A stretch of DNA of 49,837 nt from assembly GCA_003130845.1 (NCBI GenBank), contig QEXW01000078.1, positions 1-49,837 on the forward strand. The letters are read 5' to 3'. Under the pieces are notes generated by a model. That model had not been told where the DNA came from. It made no database searches and saw nothing but the letters and a program-made list of their open reading frames with translations. The position numbers and the translations under genes were made by a program. This document shows, in pieces, positions 28,336 to 38,733 of this stretch (position 1 is the stretch's first letter; each line of letters opens with the position of its first letter). Source of the DNA: Anaerolineae bacterium (GTDB lineage: Bacteria > Chloroflexota > Anaerolineae > Anaerolineales > Villigracilaceae).

Positions 28336-30144
28336 ATGTCTGAGTACATTCTTATTGCCATTGCCTGGCCTTATGCCAACGCAGAAATTCACGTTGGTAA
28401 CATCACCGGCTCGCATCTGCCCGGGGATATTGTGGCGCGCTATCATCGCTTAAAAGGCAATCATGTTTTGGTGGTATCTGGTAGTGATTCGCATGGCACG
28501 CCTGTCACCATGAGTGCGGACAAACTCAAAAAGCCGGTGGAAGAAGTTTATCAGCAGTATCATGCCACCTTTCTAGAGGTATTCCAAGGCTACGGCATTA
28601 CCTATGATTTATTTACCAGCACGCATACCCAAAATCATTTCAAAGTTTCGCAGAGCATCTTTCTTGCCTTGAAAGAGAACGGCTATCTATTCACCAAGGT
28701 TGAGCCACAATGGTTTTCGCCAGGCTTAGGCAAGTTCTTACCAGATCGCTACATCGAAGGTACTTGCTATATTTGTGGTTTTGAAGGGGCGCGTTCAGAC
28801 CAGTGCGATAAATGCGGCAACGTGCTAGAACCGGCCAAATTGGTCAACCCGAAATCAAAATGGGCAGGAGATGCCTCTACCCCCGAATTGCGCGAAACGG
28901 AGCATTTCTACATTGACTTGTCAAAACTAGAGCCGCGCGTTGTCGAGTTCCTAAAAGAACGAGCCGGACACATGCGTGAAACCGTGCTGGGCGAGTCGCT
29001 TGGCAAAATTAACGCGGAGGGTCTTAAGCCGCGTCCCATCACCCGTGACCTAGATTGGGGTATCCCTGTGCCGGTACCGGGTTGGGAAGGCAAATGCCTC
29101 TACGTCTGGTTCGAGGCCGTCATTGGCTATCTCTCGGCTGCTATTGAGTGGGCAAAACTCTCCGGTCAACCAGATGGTTGGAAACGTTGGTGGTCTAACC
29201 CGCAAGCCCGTCAGTTTTATTTTATCGGCAAAGATAACATTTTCTTCCATACTTCGCTTTGGCCGGCAGAACTGATGGGTGTTGGTGAGAAGTTTGCAGA
29301 AATTTTCAATGGAGAAGCGGGCGTTTCCCTTACTTTGCCTTATGATGTGCCGGCCAACCAATTTATGAACTTGGAAGGCCAAAAAATCAGTGGCAGCCGC
29401 AACTGGGCGGTGTGGGGGCGTGATGCTCTCTCTCGCTATGATGCCGATGCCTTACGTTACTATTTGACCGTCAACATGCCCGAAGCCAAAGACAGTGACT
29501 GGGATTGGGGCGAATTTGTGGCGCGAAACAATAGTGAACTGGTTGCCACCTGGGGCAACTTGGCCAACCGTGTACTTTCATTTAGCTATAAACATTGGGA
29601 AGGACACGTTCCACCGATTGAGCTTGCTAACCTGCGCCAGGCAGACCGAGAGCTGCTCGCCACCATCGAAGATGGTTTTCAAACGGTCGGCGCGCTCTAC
29701 GACGCCGTCAAATTGCGCGATGCACTCAAAGAATCTCTGCGCCTGGCCACAGAAGTGAACCGTTACTTAGATGCCAACGCCCCGTGGACGGCCATCAAAA
29801 CCGACCGCGACTCGGCTGCGTTGACCATCTACACCGCTTTGCGTGCCATCGATTCGCTCAAATTGCTCTTGGCGCCGGTTTTGCCGTTCTCCTCCGAGAA
29901 GTTGCATACCTTTTTGGGCTACACCACCCCACTTTTTGGCGAACAGTATACCCAAACCGTGTCTGACCAGCTCGGTGTGCATACTGTATTGCGCTACAAA
30001 CCCGGCCCAGAGGAAGAGGTCTTGTCTCAGTGGCAGCCAAGTCAATTGCAACCCGGCGTCAAACTGATGGCTCCAACACCATTATTCAAAAAACTAGAAG
30101 AAAAAGTGGCCGAAGAAGAACGAGCAAGATTAGGGCAAAAATAA
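28336..30144 (+). CDS. metG: Methionyl-tRNA synthetase
   Basis: 602 residues. It charges tRNA-Met with methionine. The nucleotide-binding H19-V-G-N22 (HIGH motif) is followed by a C4 zinc knuckle (C144, C147, C157, C160), and the KMSKS-equivalent is K350-I-S-G-S354 within EGQKISGSRNWAVW. This, with the DSDWDWGEFVARNN region, is the archaeal-like MetRS class also found in Chloroflexota, spirochaetes and others. The C-terminal tRNA-binding EMAP-like domain is absent. ATG 28336 follows AAAGGAA by eight bases. A Met-rich leader and terminator upstream suggest attenuation; a terminator follows eight bases after the stop. Confidence 0.95.
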   Translation: MSEYILIAIAWPYANAEIHVGNITGSHLPGDIVARYHRLKGNHVLVVSGSDSHGTPVTMSADKLKKPVEEVYQQYHATFLEVFQGYGITYDLFTSTHTQNHFKVSQSIFLALKENGYLFTKVEPQWFSPGLGKFLPDRYIEGTCYICGFEGARSDQCDKCGNVLEPAKLVNPKSKWAGDASTPELRETEHFYIDLSKLEPRVVEFLKERAGHMRETVLGESLGKINAEGLKPRPITRDLDWGIPVPVPGWEGKCLYVWFEAVIGYLSAAIEWAKLSGQPDGWKRWWSNPQARQFYFIGKDNIFFHTSLWPAELMGVGEKFAEIFNGEAGVSLTLPYDVPANQFMNLEGQKISGSRNWAVWGRDALSRYDADALRYYLTVNMPEAKDSDWDWGEFVARNNSELVATWGNLANRVLSFSYKHWEGHVPPIELANLRQADRELLATIEDGFQTVGALYDAVKLRDALKESLRLATEVNRYLDANAPWTAIKTDRDSAALTIYTALRAIDSLKLLLAPVLPFSSEKLHTFLGYTTPLFGEQYTQTVSDQLGVHTVLRYKPGPEEEVLSQWQPSQLQPGVKLMAPTPLFKKLEEKVAEEERARLGQK

Positions 30145-30151
30145 CAAGATG

Positions 30152-30181
30152 CGCACCATCCAAAAGATGGTGCGTTTTTTT
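30152..30181 (+). terminator. Intrinsic terminator of metG
   Basis: CGCACCATC (30152-30160), loop CAAAA, GATGGTGCG (30166-30174), then seven T. A textbook terminator. Confidence 0.92.
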
Positions 30182-30232
30182 GCCCAGCAACTTCTCTACA
30201 TCCCATCACGTACAAATAGAGACAAAAGTCAT

Positions 30233-30261
30233 TTGTTTTCGCTTGCGGGGCGTGCTACACT
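30233..30261 (+). promoter_or_regulatory. Candidate promoter of the Cys-tail/radical SAM operon
   Basis: TTGTTT (30233-30238), a 17-bp spacer and TACACT (30256-30261). Transcription would start about 25 bases before the ATG at 30294, leaving room for the GGAGG ribosome site. The boxes are moderate matches. Confidence 0.5.
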
Positions 30262-30293
30262 CAAAATTGATATTTTTTTATGGAGGCTACCGT

Positions 30294-30692
30294 ATGGGAA
30301 AAACGTTTGCATTCATTGGCGCGGGGCTATTGTTTCTGATTGGCTTGTGCTTGCTTGGTTACGGTGCTTTACTCTTAATCGGTTCGACAGCAGAAAGCGG
30401 CAGTACAAACTGGCTGACCTTTGGCGTTGGGTTTACTTGCCTGGCGGTTCTATTTTTTGCAGGTGGGGGTGGGCTGGTTTGGTTGGGTATGCGTGGTCAG
30501 AAGACCGAAGTCGTGCAGCAGGTGACGATGAAAGTGGATTTGCCAGGCGAGACCAAGGTCTCCCAAATGAAATGTCAGTCATGCGGCGGCCCAATTACCT
30601 CCACCGACATCAAAATCATGGCCGGTGCGCCGGTCGTCACCTGTCCGTATTGCCAGGCCACCTATAACCTGACCGAAGAACCCAAATGGTAA
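30294..30692 (+). CDS. Two-helix membrane protein with C-terminal zinc ribbon
   Basis: 132 residues from ATG 30294 (GGAGG seven bases upstream); a longer frame reaching back to 30030 runs through the metG terminator and is not real. Two hydrophobic helices (about 5-30 and 42-65) are followed by a basic linker and a zinc ribbon of two CxxC pairs: CQSCGGP and CPYCQATY. No family name is recognised; small membrane zinc-ribbon proteins are often accessory. It lies 12 bases before the gene for the Cys-Ala-tailed membrane protein and is the first gene of this operon. Its role may be scaffold or redox/zinc handling for the modification system, which is inference. Confidence 0.7.
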   Translation: MGKTFAFIGAGLLFLIGLCLLGYGALLLIGSTAESGSTNWLTFGVGFTCLAVLFFAGGGGLVWLGMRGQKTEVVQQVTMKVDLPGETKVSQMKCQSCGGPITSTDIKIMAGAPVVTCPYCQATYNLTEEPKW

Positions 30693-30704
30693 AGGAGAGA
30701 TGCA

Positions 30705-32375
30705 ATGAAACACCGCATTTTGGCCTTTGTGTTGGTTTGCGCGCTCGTGTTTGGACTTTCTACCAGTGCAGCAGCCCAGACCTATCGCTTTCAACTGCCT
30801 AAAGAAGAAGTGCATGTGTATTGGAACAGTGATGGTACGGTGGCGGTGGATTATCAATTTACATTCCTGAACGATGTTTCTGCCGACCCCATTGATTTTG
30901 TGGATGTCGGCCTGCCTAACGGAAGTTACGACTTTGGCACTATCCAAGCCGATGTAAATGGTAAACCCGTGCGCGTCACAAGCGATTATCAGGGCGATGG
31001 CCCGTATGGCGTGGCGGTTGAACTGGGCAATCAAGCGATTCAACCCGGCAAAACAGGGACGGTACATGTCTACATCGGCAAAATCGAGCGCATGTATTAC
31101 CCCGATTCCAAAGACGAAACCTATGCGAGCGGCGAGTTTTCGCCAACCTGGTTTGGGGCACAATACGTGAGCGGTAATACAGACCTGTCGGTGATTTTTC
31201 ATCTACCGCAAGGCGTCCAAGCCGAAGAACCGCGCTATCATCTTCCGACCAACTGGCCCGGCACCCAAGAGCCCGCTTTTGGCTTCGACGCCGACGGGCG
31301 TGTTACATATACCTGGCGCAGCACCCAAGCCAATGGCTACACCCAATACACCTTTGGTGCTTCTTATCCGGCCAAATATCTTCCCGAAGATGCCATTGTG
31401 CGCACAACCTTTCTGGATTTGCTCCTAGGCGGGCTTGCCGCTCTCTTTGGGTTGATTGCCAGATTGCTGCCCTTTTGCTGTTTTGGTGTTTTTTTCTTTG
31501 GGCTACCTGTTCTAACGGCGGTGCAAGAACACCGTCGCAAAAAGCAGTACATCCCTCCCAAGATTTCTATCGAAGGTCACGGCATCAAACGCGGTTTAAC
31601 GGCGGTCGAAGCGGCTATCTTAATGGGGCAACCGCTGGAAAAAGTGATGCAGATGATTCTGTTTGGGGTGGTCAAAAAGGGCGCTGCACAGGTCGAAAAA
31701 CGTGACCCGCTGGAACTCTCGGTTGCCGACCCACTTCCCGAAGGCTTGCGAGAATATGAAAAAGATTTCTTAGAAGCCTTTCGCCGCCCCCAACTGAGTG
31801 TACGGCGCGAGTTGTTGCGAGATATGACCGTGCGTTTGGTCAAAAGCGTAACTGAGAAAATGAAAGGCTTTAGTGGCAAAGAAACTATCGAATACTACAA
31901 GTCTATCAACGAGAAAGCCTGGCGACAAATTGAAGCCGCCGGCACGCCTGAAGTGAAGAGCCAGATGTTTGAAGAAGCTCTGGAATGGACGATGTTGGAT
32001 AAGGATTACGACGACCGGGCTCGGCGCGTGTTCACCGGCCCCGTTTACGTCCCCACCTGGTGGGGGCGTTACGACCCTGTCTTTCGTTCCTCCACGGCCG
32101 CCTCTGCGCCTTCTGCTGCGGGTGGTGGCTTTAACCTGGGGAGTGGACGTGGCTCGGCACTGCCTGGTGCCGAATTGGCAGCTTCTATTGTCACTAGCAC
32201 ACAAAATTTCGCCCAGCGCGTGTTGGGGGGCAACTTTACAGAATCGGTGACGAAAGTTACCAATCCGCCGCCACCGCCCTCCCGTTCGGGGAGTTATCGT
32301 TCAGGCGGCGGTGGTTGTGCTTGCGCTTGCGCCTGTGCTGGCTGCGCCTGTGCCTGTGCTGGAGGCGGCAGGTGA
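30705..32375 (+). CDS. DUF2207-like secreted/membrane protein with Cys-Ala repeat tail
   Basis: 556 residues. An N-terminal signal peptide (MKHRILAFVLVCALVFGLSTSAAAQ) is followed by an extracytoplasmic beta domain of about 200 residues, a hydrophobic segment around 229-265 containing vicinal cysteines (LLPFCCFG), then a cytoplasmic helical region. The overall plan resembles DUF2207-type membrane proteins, which often end in a Gly/Ser low-complexity tail. Here the end is (Cys-Ala)4-Gly-(Cys-Ala)3-Gly3-Arg (residues 538-556, seven cysteines) behind a Gly/Ser/Pro linker. The tail would lie in the cytoplasm, where a radical SAM enzyme encoded 31 bp downstream could reach it. I infer the tail is a substrate for peptide modification; metal binding is the main alternative. 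Confidence 0.75.
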   Translation: MKHRILAFVLVCALVFGLSTSAAAQTYRFQLPKEEVHVYWNSDGTVAVDYQFTFLNDVSADPIDFVDVGLPNGSYDFGTIQADVNGKPVRVTSDYQGDGPYGVAVELGNQAIQPGKTGTVHVYIGKIERMYYPDSKDETYASGEFSPTWFGAQYVSGNTDLSVIFHLPQGVQAEEPRYHLPTNWPGTQEPAFGFDADGRVTYTWRSTQANGYTQYTFGASYPAKYLPEDAIVRTTFLDLLLGGLAALFGLIARLLPFCCFGVFFFGLPVLTAVQEHRRKKQYIPPKISIEGHGIKRGLTAVEAAILMGQPLEKVMQMILFGVVKKGAAQVEKRDPLELSVADPLPEGLREYEKDFLEAFRRPQLSVRRELLRDMTVRLVKSVTEKMKGFSGKETIEYYKSINEKAWRQIEAAGTPEVKSQMFEEALEWTMLDKDYDDRARRVFTGPVYVPTWWGRYDPVFRSSTAASAPSAAGGGFNLGSGRGSALPGAELAASIVTSTQNFAQRVLGGNFTESVTKVTNPPPPPSRSGSYRSGGGGCACACACAGCACACAGGGR

Positions 32376-32406
32376 TTGGTCTTTTTATAAATTGGGAGTA
32401 CGGTGG

Positions 32407-33759
32407 ATGAACCTTTTTACCGGTTTTTTCAAGCGTCAAGCACCGCGTAGCAGCACGCAGCCGGGCTTATATCACTACCGCATTCAACGCCCCGACGAAA
32501 CGGCACGGGTACACTTGCGGCTAGAGGCAGATGGCAGCGGCACGCTCATTGTCAATGCCAATCGCATTCTGCACCTTAACCCCACCGCTGCTTGGATGGC
32601 AAAACAGGTCCTGGATGGAAGAAGCCAAGCGGAAATTATTTCTGCCGGACGTCAGACCTGGGATGTTCACCCTCAAACGCTATTGAACGATTTTTCAACC
32701 TTCAATTTTCAACTCGGTGAGTTGATTCGCCCGGATGGCGCTTGTCCGGTGCATGAGTTAGAACTAGAAACCATCGCTCCCTTTAGCGCGCGGCCTTCAG
32801 CCCCTTATCGTCTCGACTTGGCACTTACTTATCGGTGTAACAATGATTGCGCCCATTGCTACAATGCCCGCGAGCGGCAGTTTGCAGAATTAAACACGGA
32901 AGATTGGCGAAAAATTATAGATACAGCCTGGGAATTAGGCATACCGCACATTGTTTTCACCGGCGGTGAACCAACCTTGCGTGATGACTTGCCCGACCTG
33001 ATTGCCCATGCGGAAGCCAACGGTCAGATAACCGGCTTAAACACCAATGCGCGCCGTTTGAGTGACCCGCATTTCGTCCAAAAGTTGGTCGAAGCAGGCC
33101 TTGACCATGTACAAATTACCGTCGAATCTTGTGACCCAGTCATTCATAATCAGATGGTGCGCGCCTCGGCCTTTCATCAGACTATCCAGGGCTTAAAAAA
33201 TGCCCTTGCTACGCGTCTGTTTGTGATGACCAACACCACCATGCTCCAGACCAATGTTCACACCATCCCTGCTACGCTTGATTTTTTGGCCGACTTGGGG
33301 GTGCCGACCATTGGCCTGAATGCACTCATCTACTCGGGTAAAGGAAAATCTGTTGGCACAGGCTTGCCGGAACGAGATTTGAAACCCCTGCTCGAAACCG
33401 CCCGCCAGAAAACTGAAGCGCGCGGACAGCGCCTCATCTGGTACACACCCACCCAATATTGTCACTTTGACCCGGTGCAAATGGAACTCGGCGTTAAGGG
33501 TTGCACGGCTGCACAGTACAATCTGTGTGTAGAACCGAATGGAGATGTCTTACCTTGCCAATCGTACTATCACCCACTGGGTAATCTTTTACAGGATGAA
33601 TGGCATACCATTTGGAATCACCCCTTGGCGGTCAAACTGCGCGAACGGCAGGACTTACCGCTTAAGTGCCAAGGTTGCGCTTTGCTGGCTGAATGTGGTG
33701 GAGGCTGTCCTTTACAGTTTTCAACGAGCGCGTTGCATGACGGACTCGCAGGAATATGA
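32407..33759 (+). CDS. Radical SAM/SPASM enzyme with PqqD-like N-terminal domain
   Basis: 450 residues from ATG 32407 (GGGAG seven bases upstream); the frame from 32311 lies in the upstream gene. Residues about 22-108 look like a PqqD/RiPP-recognition domain (ADGSGTLIVNANRILHLNPTAAWMAKQVLDG, core HLNPTAAW). The radical SAM core has C144-N-N-D-C148-A-H-C151 for the 4Fe-4S cluster and the T-G-G-E-P (185-189) SAM motif. Seven further cysteines (366, 374, 384, 421, 424, 430, 434) match a SPASM auxiliary-cluster domain. Such enzymes make thioether or carbon-carbon links, epimerise or trim peptides. Its position next to a Cys-Ala-tailed protein suggests sulfur-to-carbon cross-linking. The reaction is inferred. 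Confidence 0.88.
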   Translation: MNLFTGFFKRQAPRSSTQPGLYHYRIQRPDETARVHLRLEADGSGTLIVNANRILHLNPTAAWMAKQVLDGRSQAEIISAGRQTWDVHPQTLLNDFSTFNFQLGELIRPDGACPVHELELETIAPFSARPSAPYRLDLALTYRCNNDCAHCYNARERQFAELNTEDWRKIIDTAWELGIPHIVFTGGEPTLRDDLPDLIAHAEANGQITGLNTNARRLSDPHFVQKLVEAGLDHVQITVESCDPVIHNQMVRASAFHQTIQGLKNALATRLFVMTNTTMLQTNVHTIPATLDFLADLGVPTIGLNALIYSGKGKSVGTGLPERDLKPLLETARQKTEARGQRLIWYTPTQYCHFDPVQMELGVKGCTAAQYNLCVEPNGDVLPCQSYYHPLGNLLQDEWHTIWNHPLAVKLRERQDLPLKCQGCALLAECGGGCPLQFSTSALHDGLAGI

Positions 33760-33842
33760 TGGCCACCCAAAGCAGCAACACCACCAACCCAAAAACAACC
33801 GCAATCCCTGAGAACATGCCGCAGCATACCTGGCCCTTATGA
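33756..33842 (+). CDS. Candidate 28-codon ORF coupled at both ends
   Basis: A short frame starting at ATG 33756 inside the radical SAM stop (ATGA) and ending at TGA 33840-33842, which overlaps the next gene's ATG (ATGA again). AGGA five bases before a second ATG (33759) is a usable ribosome site, while the following gene has none of its own. The peptide is Thr/Asn/Pro-rich, contains no cysteine and ends HTWPL. It could be a small modified peptide, a coupling device, or chance. A BLAST of so short a sequence would not settle it; conservation would. Confidence 0.4.
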   Translation: MMATQSSNTTNPKTTAIPENMPQHTWPL

Positions 33843-34861
33843 GCACCTTAACACATGCCGAAATTTGCTTTTTGTTAGCCTTCCCCGATGAAGCCGATGG
33901 TAAATCGTTTGCCGAACCGGTCACTGGCCTAAAAAATGCGCCTTATTTCCAAGCGGTAGATATTCGCCTGCGTACTTTGGGTGTTGAAACTATACTCCTC
34001 GAGGGTATTCCGCTCAACCTTGTACGCCAACGCTATGAACAGCGCGTTCAGATGGTGGAGTGCCGTTTTCGGTTGCCCGACCCACTTGACTTGGCATGTA
34101 TTCAAAAACGCCAAGAAATCGAGGACCTTCTGCAAGAGCGCCTTCTTCCGGTCAAATACCGCTCCAGTGGTCTCTTCGAGACGTATTTGGTGCTGATGGT
34201 GAGAGATGAAATCGGTGCGCCAGACGACTTTGTCCAAGCCAATGCGGCAGGTTTAGCGCGTTTTATCCGTTCTCATCATGAAATTTTAGATGAAACCGAA
34301 ATTGATGATGTCCTGATTTCGCGCTTGCGCTATACCAAATGCGACTTGACTGTGGTAGATTGGGAAGGGGCGGTTATTTTTTCGCCAGAGGGCGATTTTC
34401 AATCCGAACTGGAGCTGCTCAAGATTGGTATCTATCAATTGCTGCGTTATCGGATGCTCAATCAATCTAGTGAAGAGATTTTGCAAACCATTAGCCGTAT
34501 CTTTCAACAGAGTAAATTTTCGGTCTTTGGCCCAACCCGCGCAACCCTGCGGCGCATTGTCAATCACCGCCTGGACATCATGCTAGAATTTGAACATACC
34601 GAGCAAAACTTGTTGTTAATCGGTGATTGGTACACGGCCAAGTTGTACAAAATCATTCGGGATGAGTTTTACCTGGACGAATGGAAACAAGTCATTCAAG
34701 ATAAACTCGATAATATGGAACGCCTCATTAGCACCATTCAGGAGAATTTTTCTATGACGTGGAGCGGTTTTCTCGACTTGGTGCAACTGGTCGGCTGGCT
34801 GCTTTTGCTGGTTGGCTATTTCATCTTGTTTTTTCTGCAAGACATCAAACCTGGTCATTGA
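33839..34861 (+). CDS. Unknown protein with C-terminal membrane helix (possibly DUF155/RMD1-like)
   Basis: 340 residues, acidic to neutral, helical, with one transmembrane helix at the very end (about 310-334, GWLLLLVGYFILFFL) and a short tail. The order EIDDVLISRLRY, DLTVVDWEGAVIF, LLLIGDWYTAKLYKIIRDEFYLDEW, then coiled-coil-like residues and a final helix resembles DUF155/RMD1-type proteins, but I cannot confirm the family. The ATG has no Shine-Dalgarno, so translation probably depends on the 28-codon ORF or the radical SAM gene upstream. It lies between the active radical SAM enzyme and its cysteine-free paralog. A tail-anchored adaptor that brings the enzymes to the membrane is one guess. 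Confidence 0.6.
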   Translation: MSTLTHAEICFLLAFPDEADGKSFAEPVTGLKNAPYFQAVDIRLRTLGVETILLEGIPLNLVRQRYEQRVQMVECRFRLPDPLDLACIQKRQEIEDLLQERLLPVKYRSSGLFETYLVLMVRDEIGAPDDFVQANAAGLARFIRSHHEILDETEIDDVLISRLRYTKCDLTVVDWEGAVIFSPEGDFQSELELLKIGIYQLLRYRMLNQSSEEILQTISRIFQQSKFSVFGPTRATLRRIVNHRLDIMLEFEHTEQNLLLIGDWYTAKLYKIIRDEFYLDEWKQVIQDKLDNMERLISTIQENFSMTWSGFLDLVQLVGWLLLLVGYFILFFLQDIKPGH

Positions 34862-34875
34862 CAAGGAGGTATGCG

Positions 34876-36024
34876 ATGAACTTATTTGAGCGTATTAAAA
34901 CGTTCTTTACCCCTGTCCAGCCGTTGCCGGCGGCTACCTATCACTATCAATCACCGCCTGAAGACAAACAGCCTTACCGGCTACACTTGCGCCTAAACCA
35001 GGATGGCAGCGGCATCCTGATTGTCAATGCCAGTACGGTGCTGCATCTCAACCCAACCGCAGCGGAGTTTGCCTTGCATTTTATTCATGGCGCGGCCCCG
35101 GCGCAGGCTGCCCAACAAATTGCCAGGCGCTACCGCATTAGCAAGTCCCAAGCCGAAAAAGACTATCTCGATTTCATGGAACGCATCGAAACGCTCATTC
35201 ACAAAGAAGACCTGGATCCTATTTCGTACCTCGACTTTGAGCGTGTCACTCCCAACTCGGCTCAACTGACGGCCCCTTTGCGCTTGGACTGTGCCCTTAC
35301 CTACCGCCTTCCACTCAACGCAGACCCCTTAAATGCCCCAACAAAGCGCGTTGAGCGCGAGTTAAACACCCAGGAATGGTTCAGCATCTTAGACAAAGCC
35401 TGGGCCTATGGCGTGCCGCACATTGTCTTTACCGGTGGCGAACCAACCTTGCGCGAAGACTTGCCTGAACTGATTGCCCGCGCCGAAAAAAACGGTCAGG
35501 TTTGTGGCTTGCTTACCGATGGCCATCGCTTGGCCGACAAGGCCTATCTGGATACGTTGCTGGAAACCGGTCTTGACCATCTGATGCTCGTTTTACCCTC
35601 CACCGGACAGCCAAACTGGCAGGCTCTTCAGAACGCTCTGGTTGCTGATATTTTCTTGGCCGTTCACCTGACGGTGACACCCCAAAATGTCACAACCGTC
35701 TCCTCCCTGATGAAACAATTGCACCAAGCCGGTATTGAAGCCATGTCGCTGAGCATTTCTGACCAAACCTTACATGATGAACTATCAGCCTTGCGCGATT
35801 TGGCCGGAGAATTGGGTATGCGCTTGGTTTTTGACCTGCCAGTGCCATATTCTGCTGCCAATCCGGTTGCGTTGGAAGTATTGGGACAAGATGTTCCTTC
35901 GGGCGCCGGCAAGGCCTGGCTCTACATCGAGCCAGATGGTGATGTTCTCCCGGCCCAGGGTATGGCGCACGTTGTCTTAGGGAACATTTTGCGTGACCCT
36001 TGGGATAAGATTTATCATCCATAA
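34876..36024 (+). CDS. Cysteine-free radical SAM paralog (predicted pseudoenzyme)
   Basis: 382 residues from ATG 34876 (AAGGAGG six bases upstream). It aligns over its whole length with the radical SAM/SPASM protein at 32407: the same PqqD-like start (QDGSGILIVNASTVLHLNP), T-G-G-E-P (186-190 region) and the EPDGDVLPAQG segment where the partner has EPNGDVLPCQS. The cluster motif is gone: the positions of C144, C148 and C151 are L145, A149 and L152, and no SPASM cysteine remains; the protein also stops before the last SPASM part. It therefore cannot bind the clusters. The intact frame and ribosome site argue for a kept function, such as a regulatory or substrate-binding partner. Confidence 0.8.
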   Translation: MNLFERIKTFFTPVQPLPAATYHYQSPPEDKQPYRLHLRLNQDGSGILIVNASTVLHLNPTAAEFALHFIHGAAPAQAAQQIARRYRISKSQAEKDYLDFMERIETLIHKEDLDPISYLDFERVTPNSAQLTAPLRLDCALTYRLPLNADPLNAPTKRVERELNTQEWFSILDKAWAYGVPHIVFTGGEPTLREDLPELIARAEKNGQVCGLLTDGHRLADKAYLDTLLETGLDHLMLVLPSTGQPNWQALQNALVADIFLAVHLTVTPQNVTTVSSLMKQLHQAGIEAMSLSISDQTLHDELSALRDLAGELGMRLVFDLPVPYSAANPVALEVLGQDVPSGAGKAWLYIEPDGDVLPAQGMAHVVLGNILRDPWDKIYHP

Positions 36025-36054
36025 CGCAGCGGGAAAGGTTCCTAAATCATTGGA

Positions 36055-36085
36055 CCGGACAGCGCTCGTCCGGGCTTGGTTTTTT
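36055..36085 (+). terminator. Terminator of the Cys-tail/radical SAM operon
   Basis: CCGGAC (36055-36060), loop AGCGCTC, GTCCGG (36068-36073), followed by GCTTGG and six T. The stem is short but the site is right, 31 bases after the last gene. Confidence 0.65.
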
Positions 36086-36165
36086 GGGGTAAGCGAAACA
36101 AATTGGCTGATGTCTATGTTGATTGCGGTGAATTGACCTGCGCATGGATGGAATTCAACGTGCGG

Positions 36166-36171
36166 TAAAAT
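36166..36171 (+). promoter_or_regulatory. -10 box (TAAAAT) of sbcC, leaderless-type
   Basis: TAAAAT ends six bases before the sbcC ATG, with no Shine-Dalgarno. The expected start point is the A of ATG. No good -35 seen. Confidence 0.5.
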
Positions 36172-36177
36172 CAGAGC

Positions 36178-38733
36178 ATGATACCTGTGCAGCTCAAACT
36201 CTCCGGTTTTCTTTCTTATCGTGACCCGGTGGAAGTGGATTTCACCTCTTTTGACTTGGCCTGCATTTCTGGGCACAACGGCGCGGGAAAATCCTCCTTG
36301 CTCGATGCATTTACCTGGGTTCTATTTGGAGAAGCACGTCGGCGGGGCGAAGAACTGATTAACACCGCTTGCGATTCTGCCGAAGTGATATTGACTTTCT
36401 CCTACGAGGGCAATCGCTATCGGGTGCGTCGCTATTTGGCGCGCGGCAAAAGCACCGTGCTGGAATTTCAGATTGAACATGATGGACGCTGGAAACCGCT
36501 CACCGAACCGAGTACCCGTGCCACGCAGGCACGCATTGAGAGCGTTCTGCGTCTGGATTACGATACCTTCGTTAACGCTTCATTCTTTCTACAAGGAAAA
36601 GCCGACCAATTTGCCCAGCAAAAGGCCAGCGAACGAAAACGCATTTTGGGCAGCATTTTGGGCTTGGAAATATGGGAAACATATAAAGAACGTGCTGTAG
36701 AACGCCGCAAAATGGTGGAAGCCCAGTTGAACGAGCTCGATGGTCGCCTGGCCGAGATTAACGAGGAACTTGCTCAGGAATCGGCACGCAAAGCCCATCT
36801 CACAGCGCTCGAAATACAACTGGCGCAGATTCAATCTCTGCTTGCCGAAAAAGAGACACAACTTCGACAAACCGAAAAGATGCAGATTTTGCTGAACAAC
36901 CAGCGTAAACAGGTCGAAATGCTGGCTTCGGCACTTGAGCGTACGCGCCGTGAACGTGATTCGGTTGTGAACCGACTGGTGGCGCGTCAAGCCGAATCGG
37001 TGCATCAGGTTGCCCTGCTCGACCGTGCTGCCGAAATCGAAGCCCGTTACCTGGCCTGGCAGGCTGTGCGAGCCGACCTGCTTCGCTGGGAAACGCTCGC
37101 CGGGCAATTTCGTGAAATTGAAAAGCGCCGCCAGCCCTGGCTCGAGGCCATCACCATCGAGCAGGCGCGGTTGGAACAAGAGCAACAATCGCTCCTCAAA
37201 GAGTCTGCACGTGTTGATGAGCAGCAAAAGGACATAGAAGCCTTAAAACAGCAAATTGTGCAAGCAGAAAAGACGCTACAAGAGGTTGAAGCCCGCCTGC
37301 CTCAGCGCGTCGAGCTGGAGAGCCAACTACGTCAAGCGCAAAATCACTATGTCGAATTAAAAGCGGAAAACGAACGCCTGAAATCTGAAATGGAGGCGCT
37401 CAAAGCGCGCCTTGACCAAGTCAGTGAAATTCAGGGCGCTGTTTGCCCAGTGTGTGGGCAACCGCTCACCGGAAGTCACCGCGATTTGCTCGTCGCACAA
37501 CTCCAAGCAGAAGGACGTGAACGGGGCGACCGCTGGCGCGCCAATCGAAATGACATGGAAAGGCTTGCTGTAGAGATACGTGAAATTGAAGCGCGTCTTA
37601 AGGGGCTTGACGAAGCAGATAATGAGCGGGTGAAGTGGGCCGCTCAACTCTCCTCCTTGAAGGAACGCCTGGAGACAACCGTTGCAGCCATCTCTGCTTG
37701 GCAAGCAGGGGGTGCCTTGCGCTTAACCGAGGTTGAACGGTTGCTGCGTGAACAATCATTTTCTGCTCAGGCACGTTCTGCACTTTTGGAAATAGAGAGT
37801 GAACTGATGGCATTGGGTTATGACCTCGCTGCGCACGAAGCTGCCCGTCAGGCCGAGCAGGAAGGCAAGGCTGCTGAGCAACAATGGCTAGAACTAGAGA
37901 AAGCACGTGCTGCTTGGCAGCCTTTAGAGCGCGAAATCAACGAGTTGCGCACTCAAGGTGCGGCCCTTGACCAACAAATTGAGCAACAGGAAGATGAATA
38001 TGCCCAGGCGGTGGCTGCTTTGCAACAGGCCGAAGACGAAATCCCCTCGCTCGAACAAGTGGAACGAGATTTTTATACTCTTAAGGAAAAAGAAACCGAC
38101 CTGATGCAACAGGTCGGCGCAGCGCGGCAGTTGGTGATAGTGTTAGAAAGCCGTCGGGCGCAGAAACAGCAACTTGAATTGGCGCGTCAGGACCGCGCCT
38201 TAGAAATTGGCCGCTATAAAACGTTAGAACGTGCCTTCGGAAAAGATGGCGTGCCTGCGCTGTTGATTGAACAAGCCTTACCGCAAATTGAAGAAAAAGC
38301 CAATGAGCTGCTTGACCGCCTTTCTAACGGCACGATGAGCGTACGTTTTGTGACACAAGCCGAATATAAAGACAAAAGGCGTGATGACTTAAAAGAGACA
38401 CTCGATATTCAAATCAGCGATGGCGCCGGTACCCGTGATTACGAAATGTTCTCTGGCGGCGAGGCCTTTCGTGTCAACTTTGCGATTCGGCTGGCCCTTT
38501 CCGAAGTGCTTGCACGGCGCACCGGAGCGCGCTTGCAAACGTTGGTGATTGATGAAGGCTTTGGCTCGCAAGATGCGCTTGGGCGTCAGCGATTGGTGGA
38601 GGCTATCAATGCGGTTCGGCGCGACTTTGCAAAAATTCTCATTATCACCCACTTAGATGAGTTAAAAGATGCTTTTCCCAACCGAATTGAGGTGGAAAAA
38701 ACACCGCGCGGTAGCCATGTTCGTGTAGTGTAA
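36178..38733 (+). CDS. sbcC: Exonuclease SbcC/Rad50-family ATPase
   Basis: 851 residues. The N-terminal half-ATPase has GHNGAGKSSLLDAFTWVLFG (Walker A 33-41 region) and a Q-loop (FFLQGKAD). A long Gln/Glu/Arg-rich coiled coil is broken by the zinc hook C423-P-V-C426. The C-terminal half carries the ABC signature (MFSGGEAFRVNFAIRLALSEVL), Walker B (LVIDEGFGSQD) and the switch histidine (IITHL). Rad50/SbcC forms a complex with the nuclease SbcD/Mre11 that opens DNA ends and hairpins. sbcD is usually adjacent but is not in this window. The gene is convergent with rsfS, with only two bases between stops and no terminator. Confidence 0.93.
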   Translation: MIPVQLKLSGFLSYRDPVEVDFTSFDLACISGHNGAGKSSLLDAFTWVLFGEARRRGEELINTACDSAEVILTFSYEGNRYRVRRYLARGKSTVLEFQIEHDGRWKPLTEPSTRATQARIESVLRLDYDTFVNASFFLQGKADQFAQQKASERKRILGSILGLEIWETYKERAVERRKMVEAQLNELDGRLAEINEELAQESARKAHLTALEIQLAQIQSLLAEKETQLRQTEKMQILLNNQRKQVEMLASALERTRRERDSVVNRLVARQAESVHQVALLDRAAEIEARYLAWQAVRADLLRWETLAGQFREIEKRRQPWLEAITIEQARLEQEQQSLLKESARVDEQQKDIEALKQQIVQAEKTLQEVEARLPQRVELESQLRQAQNHYVELKAENERLKSEMEALKARLDQVSEIQGAVCPVCGQPLTGSHRDLLVAQLQAEGRERGDRWRANRNDMERLAVEIREIEARLKGLDEADNERVKWAAQLSSLKERLETTVAAISAWQAGGALRLTEVERLLREQSFSAQARSALLEIESELMALGYDLAAHEAARQAEQEGKAAEQQWLELEKARAAWQPLEREINELRTQGAALDQQIEQQEDEYAQAVAALQQAEDEIPSLEQVERDFYTLKEKETDLMQQVGAARQLVIVLESRRAQKQQLELARQDRALEIGRYKTLERAFGKDGVPALLIEQALPQIEEKANELLDRLSNGTMSVRFVTQAEYKDKRRDDLKETLDIQISDGAGTRDYEMFSGGEAFRVNFAIRLALSEVLARRTGARLQTLVIDEGFGSQDALGRQRLVEAINAVRRDFAKILIITHLDELKDAFPNRIEVEKTPRGSHVRVV

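Follow-up and report, generated by a model that had tools for sequence, protein, structure and literature searches.

The locus described here raises the question of whether a radical S-adenosylmethionine (SAM)/SPASM peptide enzyme, a class known mainly from small peptides and cofactors, could act upon the tail of a membrane protein. It lies in a 49,837-nucleotide stretch of DNA from an Anaerolineae bacterium of the phylum Chloroflexota (contig QEXW01000078.1; this whole stretch is referred to as the window), whose genome is available as a 3.77-Mb assembly of 159 contigs. Five genes, designated here as ZR, SUB, RS, TA, and PS, follow each other in this order on the + strand, and all of them were found at the coordinates claimed in an earlier prediction for this DNA (the original prediction), which had proposed that the radical SAM enzyme RS modifies the Cys-Ala tail of the membrane protein SUB. 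The features of central importance are the following:

30705-32375, + strand: SUB, a membrane protein of 556 residues with a seven-Cys Cys-Ala tail
32259-32282, + strand: TNPPPPPS segment of SUB, preceding the linker; a candidate recognition element for a PqqD domain
32316-32372, + strand: the tail, CACACACAGCACACAGGGR, at the extreme C-terminus of SUB; the proposed substrate of RS
32407-33759, + strand: RS, 450 residues, with an N-terminal PqqD-like domain, a radical SAM CxxxCxxC motif, and a SPASM domain

The co-occurrence, adjacency, conservation, predicted topology, and predicted fold reported below establish that RS and the tail are a real and conserved pair that extends across domains; its chemistry is what we infer from them.

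Co-occurrence and Adjacency of the Tailed Protein and the Enzyme

The co-occurrence of SUB and RS was determined for 61 genomes, viz. that of the window and 60 relatives, in which RS was called at E ≤ 1e-99. Both SUB and full-length RS were present in 46 of these genomes and neither of them in the other 15, which include a member of the window's own genus (G005) and a genome (G036) whose congener (G012) has the system. Weaker RS matches were seen in four of these 15 genomes, consisting of PS alone in G036 (1.8e-59) and of generic radical SAM proteins (1e-21 to 1e-23) in G038, G047, and G060. A 26-base DNA pattern for the tail was detected in 44 of the 61 genomes, all of them among the 46 with the system; in the remaining two (G031 and G041) the SUB matches run into a contig end. 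The original prediction had named a wide presence of the enzyme without a Cys-tailed neighbor as a result that would speak against it, and the reverse was found, as each of the 46 genomes with a full-length RS has SUB.

The neighborhood search and co-occurrence statistics that had been proposed for the Chloroflexota were based upon 400 genomes, a set that overlaps the previous one, with RS called at 1e-60. RS was found in 31 and the tail pattern in 29 of these genomes; 28 had both, three had only RS, one had only the tail, and 368 had neither (Fisher 1.4e-38, a value that ignores kinship). In all 28 genomes with both parts the tail and RS are separated by about 0.7 kb or less, and a reversed control pattern gave no hits among the matches listed. 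In the single genome with only the tail pattern (G226), the open reading frame (ORF) resembles neither SUB nor RS. Of the three genomes with only RS, one has PS alone; in the other two (G189 and G432) the RS is divergent, and the SUB relative next to it has a tail of successive CHSAC/CVHDAC repeats. Both kinds are present in G070. In a Bacillota order, the tail was found in two of 196 genomes and RS in the same two, about 1 kb apart.

As a separate observation, divergent RS proteins stand next to SUB relatives with long CHSAC/CVHDAC tails in three loci (L248, L249, and L253), and the enzyme family perhaps has a further kind of tail chemistry there.

The two genes are also closely linked. A tailed SUB and RS share a strand in 35 of 41 loci (the window included), with a median gap of 48 bases; among these 35, the order is reversed in one (L066) and the gap is 505-701 bases in four. 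The loci outside this set, six in number, are L050, L065, L067, L068, L069, and L070, several of which are at contig ends.

Conservation and Predicted Location of the Cys-Ala Tail

The description of SUB as a membrane protein ending in a seven-cysteine Cys-Ala tail was borne out by its sequence. When 40 regions of relatives were fetched with RS as bait, the sequence CACACAGGGR formed the exact C-terminus of 36 of the 40 SUB-matching ORFs (the window included), and it was mostly preceded by further CA pairs and Gly. The four ORFs lacking it are an N-terminal fragment of a broken gene whose tail is on the other fragment (L064), an ORF cut off by the end of its contig (L069), and a pair of short SUB relatives that align to the cytosolic part alone (L067 and L068).

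Within the 36 tailed proteins, which were chosen for codon analysis by their CACACAGGGR ending, both Cys codons (TGC and TGT) occur, each of the four codons is found at the fixed positions of Ala and of Gly, and the stop codons are TAA (15), TGA (11), and TAG (10). With its residues fixed and its codons variable, the tail is, as judged by these sequences, more than a product of chance. A TNP sequence is present within the final 75 residues of 35 of the 36 proteins. The last tail columns are also invariant in two further alignments (A2 and A3), but by construction, as the loci behind their rows were retrieved with the tail pattern.

An AlphaFold model of SUB (pLDDT 80.8, pTM 0.46) and hydropathy analysis indicate a signal helix, a beta-sandwich ectodomain (~29-222), and one membrane helix (within 236-280), followed in the model by a mostly helical cytosolic part, a flexible linker, and the Cys-Ala tail, where residues 525-556 have a pLDDT of <50. 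Directly C-terminal to the membrane helix is the sequence HRRKK. Because there is one membrane helix followed by HRRKK, the positive-inside rule and the model place the tail on the cytosolic side. The tail is thus predicted to be disordered and cytosolic, i.e., where RS would be, and this predicted topology, together with the co-occurrence, favors the proposal that the tail is the substrate of the enzyme.

The ectodomain fold matches that of yeast Ost1 (Z 17.2, rmsd 2.7 over 184 residues, 10% identity), and the same region (~25-225) also resembles the N-domains of M1 aminopeptidases (LTA4H, Z ~12). The cytosolic part was barely covered in this fold search, and the Ost1 match concerns the fold of the ectodomain alone; at the sequence level, the window SUB gave no Pfam match and no PDB profile match at E 0.1. 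The SUB family with an Ost1-like ectodomain fold is also present in records with Heimdallarchaeota titles. Ribophorin homologs have been reported in Asgard archaea (PMC8993221).

Domain Content and Fold of the RS Enzyme

The fusion of a radical SAM/SPASM enzyme to a PqqD-like domain was confirmed for RS by three Pfam domains, all scoring above their cutoffs: PF04055 (1.9e-26), PF13186 for SPASM (5.7e-10), and PF05402 for PqqD (3e-05; 24.7 bits vs. a cutoff of 23.4). In the predicted model of RS (pLDDT 87.9, pTM 0.88), the PqqD-like domain consists of strands and three helices at residues 20-107. No PF05402 match was obtained at E 0.01 for the enzymes of two other loci (L103 and L150). The cysteines of the CxxxCxxC motif are C144, C148, and C151, and they are invariant in all 15 rows of an alignment (A1) not selected for the motif; the rows of A3 were filtered for CxxxCxxC, so that its invariance there is by construction.

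Among the closest fold matches of RS are SkfB (Z 28.5), SuiB (Z 28.4), and, over the core, CteB (Z 25.5); TigE (8vpo) and the epimerase EpeE also match, at Z 22.5 and Z ~19, respectively. The alignments with SkfB and SuiB begin at residues 33 and 22 of RS, respectively, and hence largely cover the recognition domain. In profile searches, SkfB and PqqE came first, followed by BlsE, GDGT-MAS, SuiB, MoaA, and CteB. None of the best 25 of 77 NCBIfam matches of the window RS reached its cutoff, the best relative being PqqE with 127.6 bits against a cutoff of 381, and the L103 and L150 enzymes were likewise below the NCBIfam cutoffs among the matches listed.

In two of the Chloroflexota loci (L067, 3889-6673; L068, 3859-6992), RS is longer and carries a C-terminal GGGCSGCSGSCGT stretch. 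The short SUB-like protein that follows it there has neither the ectodomain nor the tail.

Distribution in Bacteria and Archaea and Variants of the Tail

A scan of the genome collection for the tail DNA pattern gave at least 118 stretches, and 80 loci were listed. Based upon ORF length, position, and sequence, 75 of these loci were judged to contain true tails and five to be chance matches; the latter had generic radical SAM proteins (best 3.1e-27) or none. An RS homolog was present in the locus, contig, or genome for 74 of the 75 true-tail loci listed. The RS-family match is inside the locus in 62 cases (some of them partial or motif-free), whereas of the remaining 13 loci one shares its contig with an RS-bearing locus, and for 11 of the other 12 RS is elsewhere in the genome. 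A long RS with the CxxxCxxC motif passed the filter in 52 loci.

The scan retrieved records from Bacillota, Planctomycetes, Asgard, and other archaea, with titles that include Chloroflexi, Clostridia, Lachnospiraceae, Pirellulales, Zixibacteriota, and Aminicenantes as well as Heimdallarchaeota, Bathyarchaeota, Methanomassiliicoccales, and others. The pair of RS and tail thus spans both Bacteria and Archaea. Among the 75 tails listed, 36 end with GGGR, 27 have GGGRAGC followed by about 15-35 residues (Clostridia-type records), three have GGGGAGC, seven have GGGV, GGGA, or similar endings (archaeal records), and the tails of L113 and L115 are variants. The breadth of this distribution and the near-invariance of the tail suggest a housekeeping role rather than a weapon.

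Proposed Modification of the Tail and Alternative Explanations

Known thioether maturases join the sulfur of Cys to alpha-carbons. The explanation that we favor, by a modest degree over all others taken together, is that SUB and RS are a substrate-enzyme pair in which RS acts upon the attached tail, with thioethers as the leading chemistry. In this proposal, SUB would be anchored in the membrane, the ectodomain facing outward and the C-terminal tail reaching into the cytosol; RS would bind it by means of the PqqD-like domain, for which the conserved TNP segment before the flexible linker is a possible contact site, and would apply 5'-deoxyadenosyl radical chemistry to the alternating Cys and Ala residues. 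The most likely product would be intramolecular Cys thioether bridges, either of the sactionine type, leading to alpha-carbons of Ala or Gly, or of a ranthionine-type variant, and the modified tail would remain on the membrane protein. Members of the clade with GGGR tails may also employ a class-I methyltransferase, the target of which is perhaps this tail as well, and ZR and PS are probably assembly or substrate-holding partners. The parts of this proposal differ in strength. That RS acts upon the tail is highly probable; given this, a thioether is somewhat more probable than another radical product, and it is likely that the tail stays attached. A more specific suggestion, which we put forward tentatively and consider to have rather less than an even chance, is that the result is a permanent, cytosolic, thioether-bridged Cys-Ala tail (methylated in one clade) that may serve as a redox, metal-binding, or sensing device, i.e., an undescribed cross-domain modification of a ribophorin-fold protein with a dedicated maturase and a cluster-less partner.

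Thioether bridging of the attached tail is placed first because of the likeness of RS in fold and profile to known maturases, the precedents for Ala as acceptor, and the precedent of QhpD, which is considered in the last section. SkfB tolerates Ala as an acceptor (PMC8326336), and ruminococcin C1 contains a Cys5-Ala12 bridge (PMC8172795). Sactipeptides are mostly hairpins (PMC8326336), and the arrangement of the SUB tail, CACACACA-G-CACACA-GGGR, may have a hairpin-like shape, yet with Cys in both halves.

Several observations weigh against this proposal. In one genome (G057) RS is 129 kb away from the tail, and in another (G044) it is on the opposite strand, about 4 kb from it. For one tailed protein (L175, 3627-4446), the 1.7-Mb Clostridia assembly that encodes it contains no RS match; either the assembly is incomplete or the case is an exception. 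The number of Cys in Chloroflexota tails varies from six to eight, and this unfixed parity argues against simple Cys-Cys pairing. Of the full SPASM pattern, the window RS lacks the final Cys, apparently retained in several archaeal RS proteins, and the Bacillota RS lacks the CX2CX5CX3C stretch, so that the cluster content differs. As the scores of RS are far under the NCBIfam cutoffs listed, its chemistry is not readable from its family. Viperin-like enzymes and anSME, which are not peptide crosslinkers, match the RS core at Z ~25, equal to CteB. The modified tail peptide is itself a prediction. Lastly, AlbA, a thioether maturase, rejected acceptors that were mutated to Ala (PMC8172795), and in known hairpins the donor Cys are in the N-terminal half (PMC8326336), unlike the SUB tail.

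If RS does act upon the tail, the product could be something other than a thioether, such as C-C or C-O crosslinks, epimerized residues, or changes of the carbon skeleton on the repeat. SuiB, the chemistry of which involves Lys and Trp (PMC8326336), is as close to RS in fold as SkfB, and TigE and EpeE match as well; however, the residues that are fixed in the tail comprise Cys, Ala, Gly, and Arg but no aromatic residue or Lys, and the thioether maturases SkfB and CteB are among the best matches, so we regard such a product as unlikely. It is less probable still that the tail (CxCxCxC) is a metal- or cluster-binding site that RS or ZR loads or maintains without crosslinking. The seven closely spaced Cys, the zinc ribbon in the adjacent gene or within SUB, and the variable number of Cys would fit such a site, but by itself it leaves unexplained both the tie to a PqqD-SPASM enzyme (46 of 46 genomes) and the fixed Ala and Gly between the Cys.

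Of a similarly low probability is the explanation that the tail is the core of a ribosomally synthesized and post-translationally modified peptide (RiPP), which is modified on the membrane protein and then cleaved and released or exported. PqqD-radical SAM-SPASM enzymes are frequent in RiPP pathways (PMC8326336), the Gly-rich linker is a possible cleavage site, and among the families listed for stretches of 2.7 to 12 kb, an S26 signal peptidase is present in five of 40 Chloroflexota loci and an ABC ATPase in five of 27 Bacillota loci. These loci are, however, minorities, the S26 family also neighbors the methyltransferase, and no protease family is among those listed for 17 archaeal loci. In addition, the supposed core is nearly invariant rather than diversified, and it is carried by a membrane protein whose ectodomain is conserved. 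We consider it very improbable that RS modifies another target and that the tail merely docks it at the membrane. In its favor, the chemical change of the tail is a prediction, and RS is unlinked from SUB in G057; but an invariant Cys-Ala sequence with varying codons is not needed for docking, and a 28-residue ORF behind RS (33757-33843) is absent in the nearest relative compared.

A Class-I Methyltransferase Associated with the System

Neighbor clustering revealed a class-I methyltransferase gene adjoining RS or PS in Chloroflexota loci and in loci with Zixibacteriota, Coatesbacteria, and Heimdallarchaeota titles; in Ornatilinea apprima P3M-1 (L144), the genes for ZR, SUB, RS, PS, and the methyltransferase are consecutive on one strand. 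In the genome of the window, the corresponding gene is elsewhere:

C16:69836-70579 (L319): class-I methyltransferase of the source genome, unlinked to the operon

This gene is flanked by genes for a DSP-type phosphatase and an S26 signal peptidase, and in the methyltransferase regions fetched from the window's family the S26 family is found in eight of nine and the phosphatase family in seven of nine. The methyltransferase (E ≤ 1e-35, distant copies included) was present in 43 of the 46 genomes with the system vs. none of the 15 others, but the query alignment (A5) was built from system loci and is thus tuned to them. No NCBIfam cutoff was reached by this family among the matches listed. It was also present in 14 of 16 genomes with GGGR tails vs. 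none of 16 with other tails, at a cutoff (1e-28) set after the list was seen and with six of the 14 loci being rows of the query alignment itself. In the RS tree, the GGGR ending forms one clade with one change (30 of 32 loci; L107, with no motif-bearing RS, and L162, with too short a row, are omitted). As GGGR thus corresponds to a single RS clade, its link with the methyltransferase is one event that is not separable from descent and provides no independent support. Whether the methyltransferase acts upon the same tail is, in our estimate, evenly balanced.

Accessory Proteins and Neighboring Genes

The other genes of the five-gene run are as follows:

30294-30692, + strand: ZR, 132 residues, two membrane helices predicted, a four-Cys zinc ribbon in the C-terminal part, and TEEPKW as the last residues
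33839-34861, + strand: TA, 340 residues, family not assigned, with a hydrophobic C-terminal stretch; accessory
34876-36024, + strand: PS, an RS paralog of 382 residues without the radical SAM cluster motif

ZR agrees with its earlier description as a zinc-ribbon membrane protein, with hydrophobic 19-residue windows starting at residues 1 and 40 and zinc-ribbon family matches that are below cutoff. It is matched in 34 of 40 related loci, and the Chloroflexota and several archaeal loci encode it in a gene of its own; in a Bacillota homolog (L117) the zinc ribbon is inside SUB (26.5 bits, cutoff 27). PS has radical SAM (3e-10) and PqqD (3e-06) domains and is matched in 35 of 40 related loci. As had been predicted for it, the CxxxCxxC motif is missing, in this case from all 36 aligned homologs (the window included), while GGE(P/A/S/C)T is retained in 30 of them. 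Cluster-less ORFs of the PS type occur in Chloroflexota loci, and RS-like motif-free ORFs are present in L146 and L177 (Pirellulales and Armatimonadetes titles). G036 retains PS (L251, 2597-3752), but searches of this genome yielded no SUB, no full-length RS, and no methyltransferase. TA gave no Pfam or NCBIfam match at E 0.1.

The original prediction regarded the five genes as one unit with a flanking promoter and terminator. Of this, the core of SUB and RS holds, but TA, matched in only eight of 40 related loci, is not a core part. The run is flanked by a methionyl-tRNA synthetase gene (PF09334) upstream and a SbcC/Rad50-like ATPase gene downstream. A strong terminator-like site is present at 30151-30175, behind the upstream gene, and a second, weaker one at 36055-36073. 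The promoter was not recovered: the four consensus sites across 29900-36300 are fewer than the 5.2 expected from shuffles, and none of them precedes 30294.

The presence of a small precursor peptide was considered and rejected. The 28-residue ORF at 33757-33843, which overlaps both of its neighbors by start/stop ATGA, is absent in the TA-bearing relative of the same genus (G009, L032), where RS and TA are only four bases apart. In many relatives (e.g., L033, L038, L041, and L043) the gap after RS is occupied not by a Cys-rich precursor but by a PAS-like gene of ~110 residues (PF08448, 20.0 bits vs. a cutoff of 23.1), and 17 of 40 related loci have a match to this gene at some position. The gaps between RS and the next gene showed no small ORF that is conserved. 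Separately, 14 of 40 Chloroflexota loci (e.g., L047, L055, and L058) have a member of a methylmalonyl-CoA mutase gene family close to the operon.

Comparison with Known Systems

DUF2207 membrane proteins have a layout resembling that of SUB. The designation of SUB as DUF2207-like was nevertheless not confirmed, as the window SUB has no Pfam match to this family (PF09972) and only two of five SUB homologs scanned, both from Bacillota, match it, below the cutoff (17.5 and 18.8 bits vs. 24.4). In these two homologs the sequence likeness to DUF2207 proteins, such as SMU.243 of Streptococcus mutans (PMC10457818), is weak. Ost1/ribophorin I and LTA4H share the fold of the SUB ectodomain, but with ~10% identity and no catalytic domain in SUB, their functions are not transferable to it.

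With the sactipeptide and ranthipeptide maturases SkfB and CteB, RS shares a PqqD-type domain, a radical SAM core, a SPASM or twitch domain, and a Cys-rich substrate. However, the substrates of SkfB and CteB are small precursor peptides with a leader (PMC8326336), whereas the candidate here is the tail of a membrane protein with a conserved ectodomain. No small leader-core precursor was found, the conserved Cys-rich partner being a membrane protein (556 residues in the window), and the system is not assigned to the sactipeptide systems. PqqE forms a Glu-Tyr C-C bond and works with a separate PqqD protein (PMC8326336), whereas in RS the PqqD-type domain is fused. A precedent for a modification that is kept is QhpD, which introduces three thioethers within QhpC of quinohemoprotein amine dehydrogenase, a protein retained as a functional part (PMC7876137). 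In that case, the mature protein is ~9 kDa, a 28-residue leader is cut, and the acceptors are Asp or Glu (PMC7876137), as opposed to the Cys-Ala repeat of a membrane protein in SUB. No description of the RS-tail pair was found among the papers listed from the open PubMed Central literature, with preprints and most subscription papers being outside the scope of this search. The enzyme class is a known one, but the kind of substrate, the tail of a membrane protein, is not, and the pair suggests that membrane proteins undergo a chemical modification not described before.

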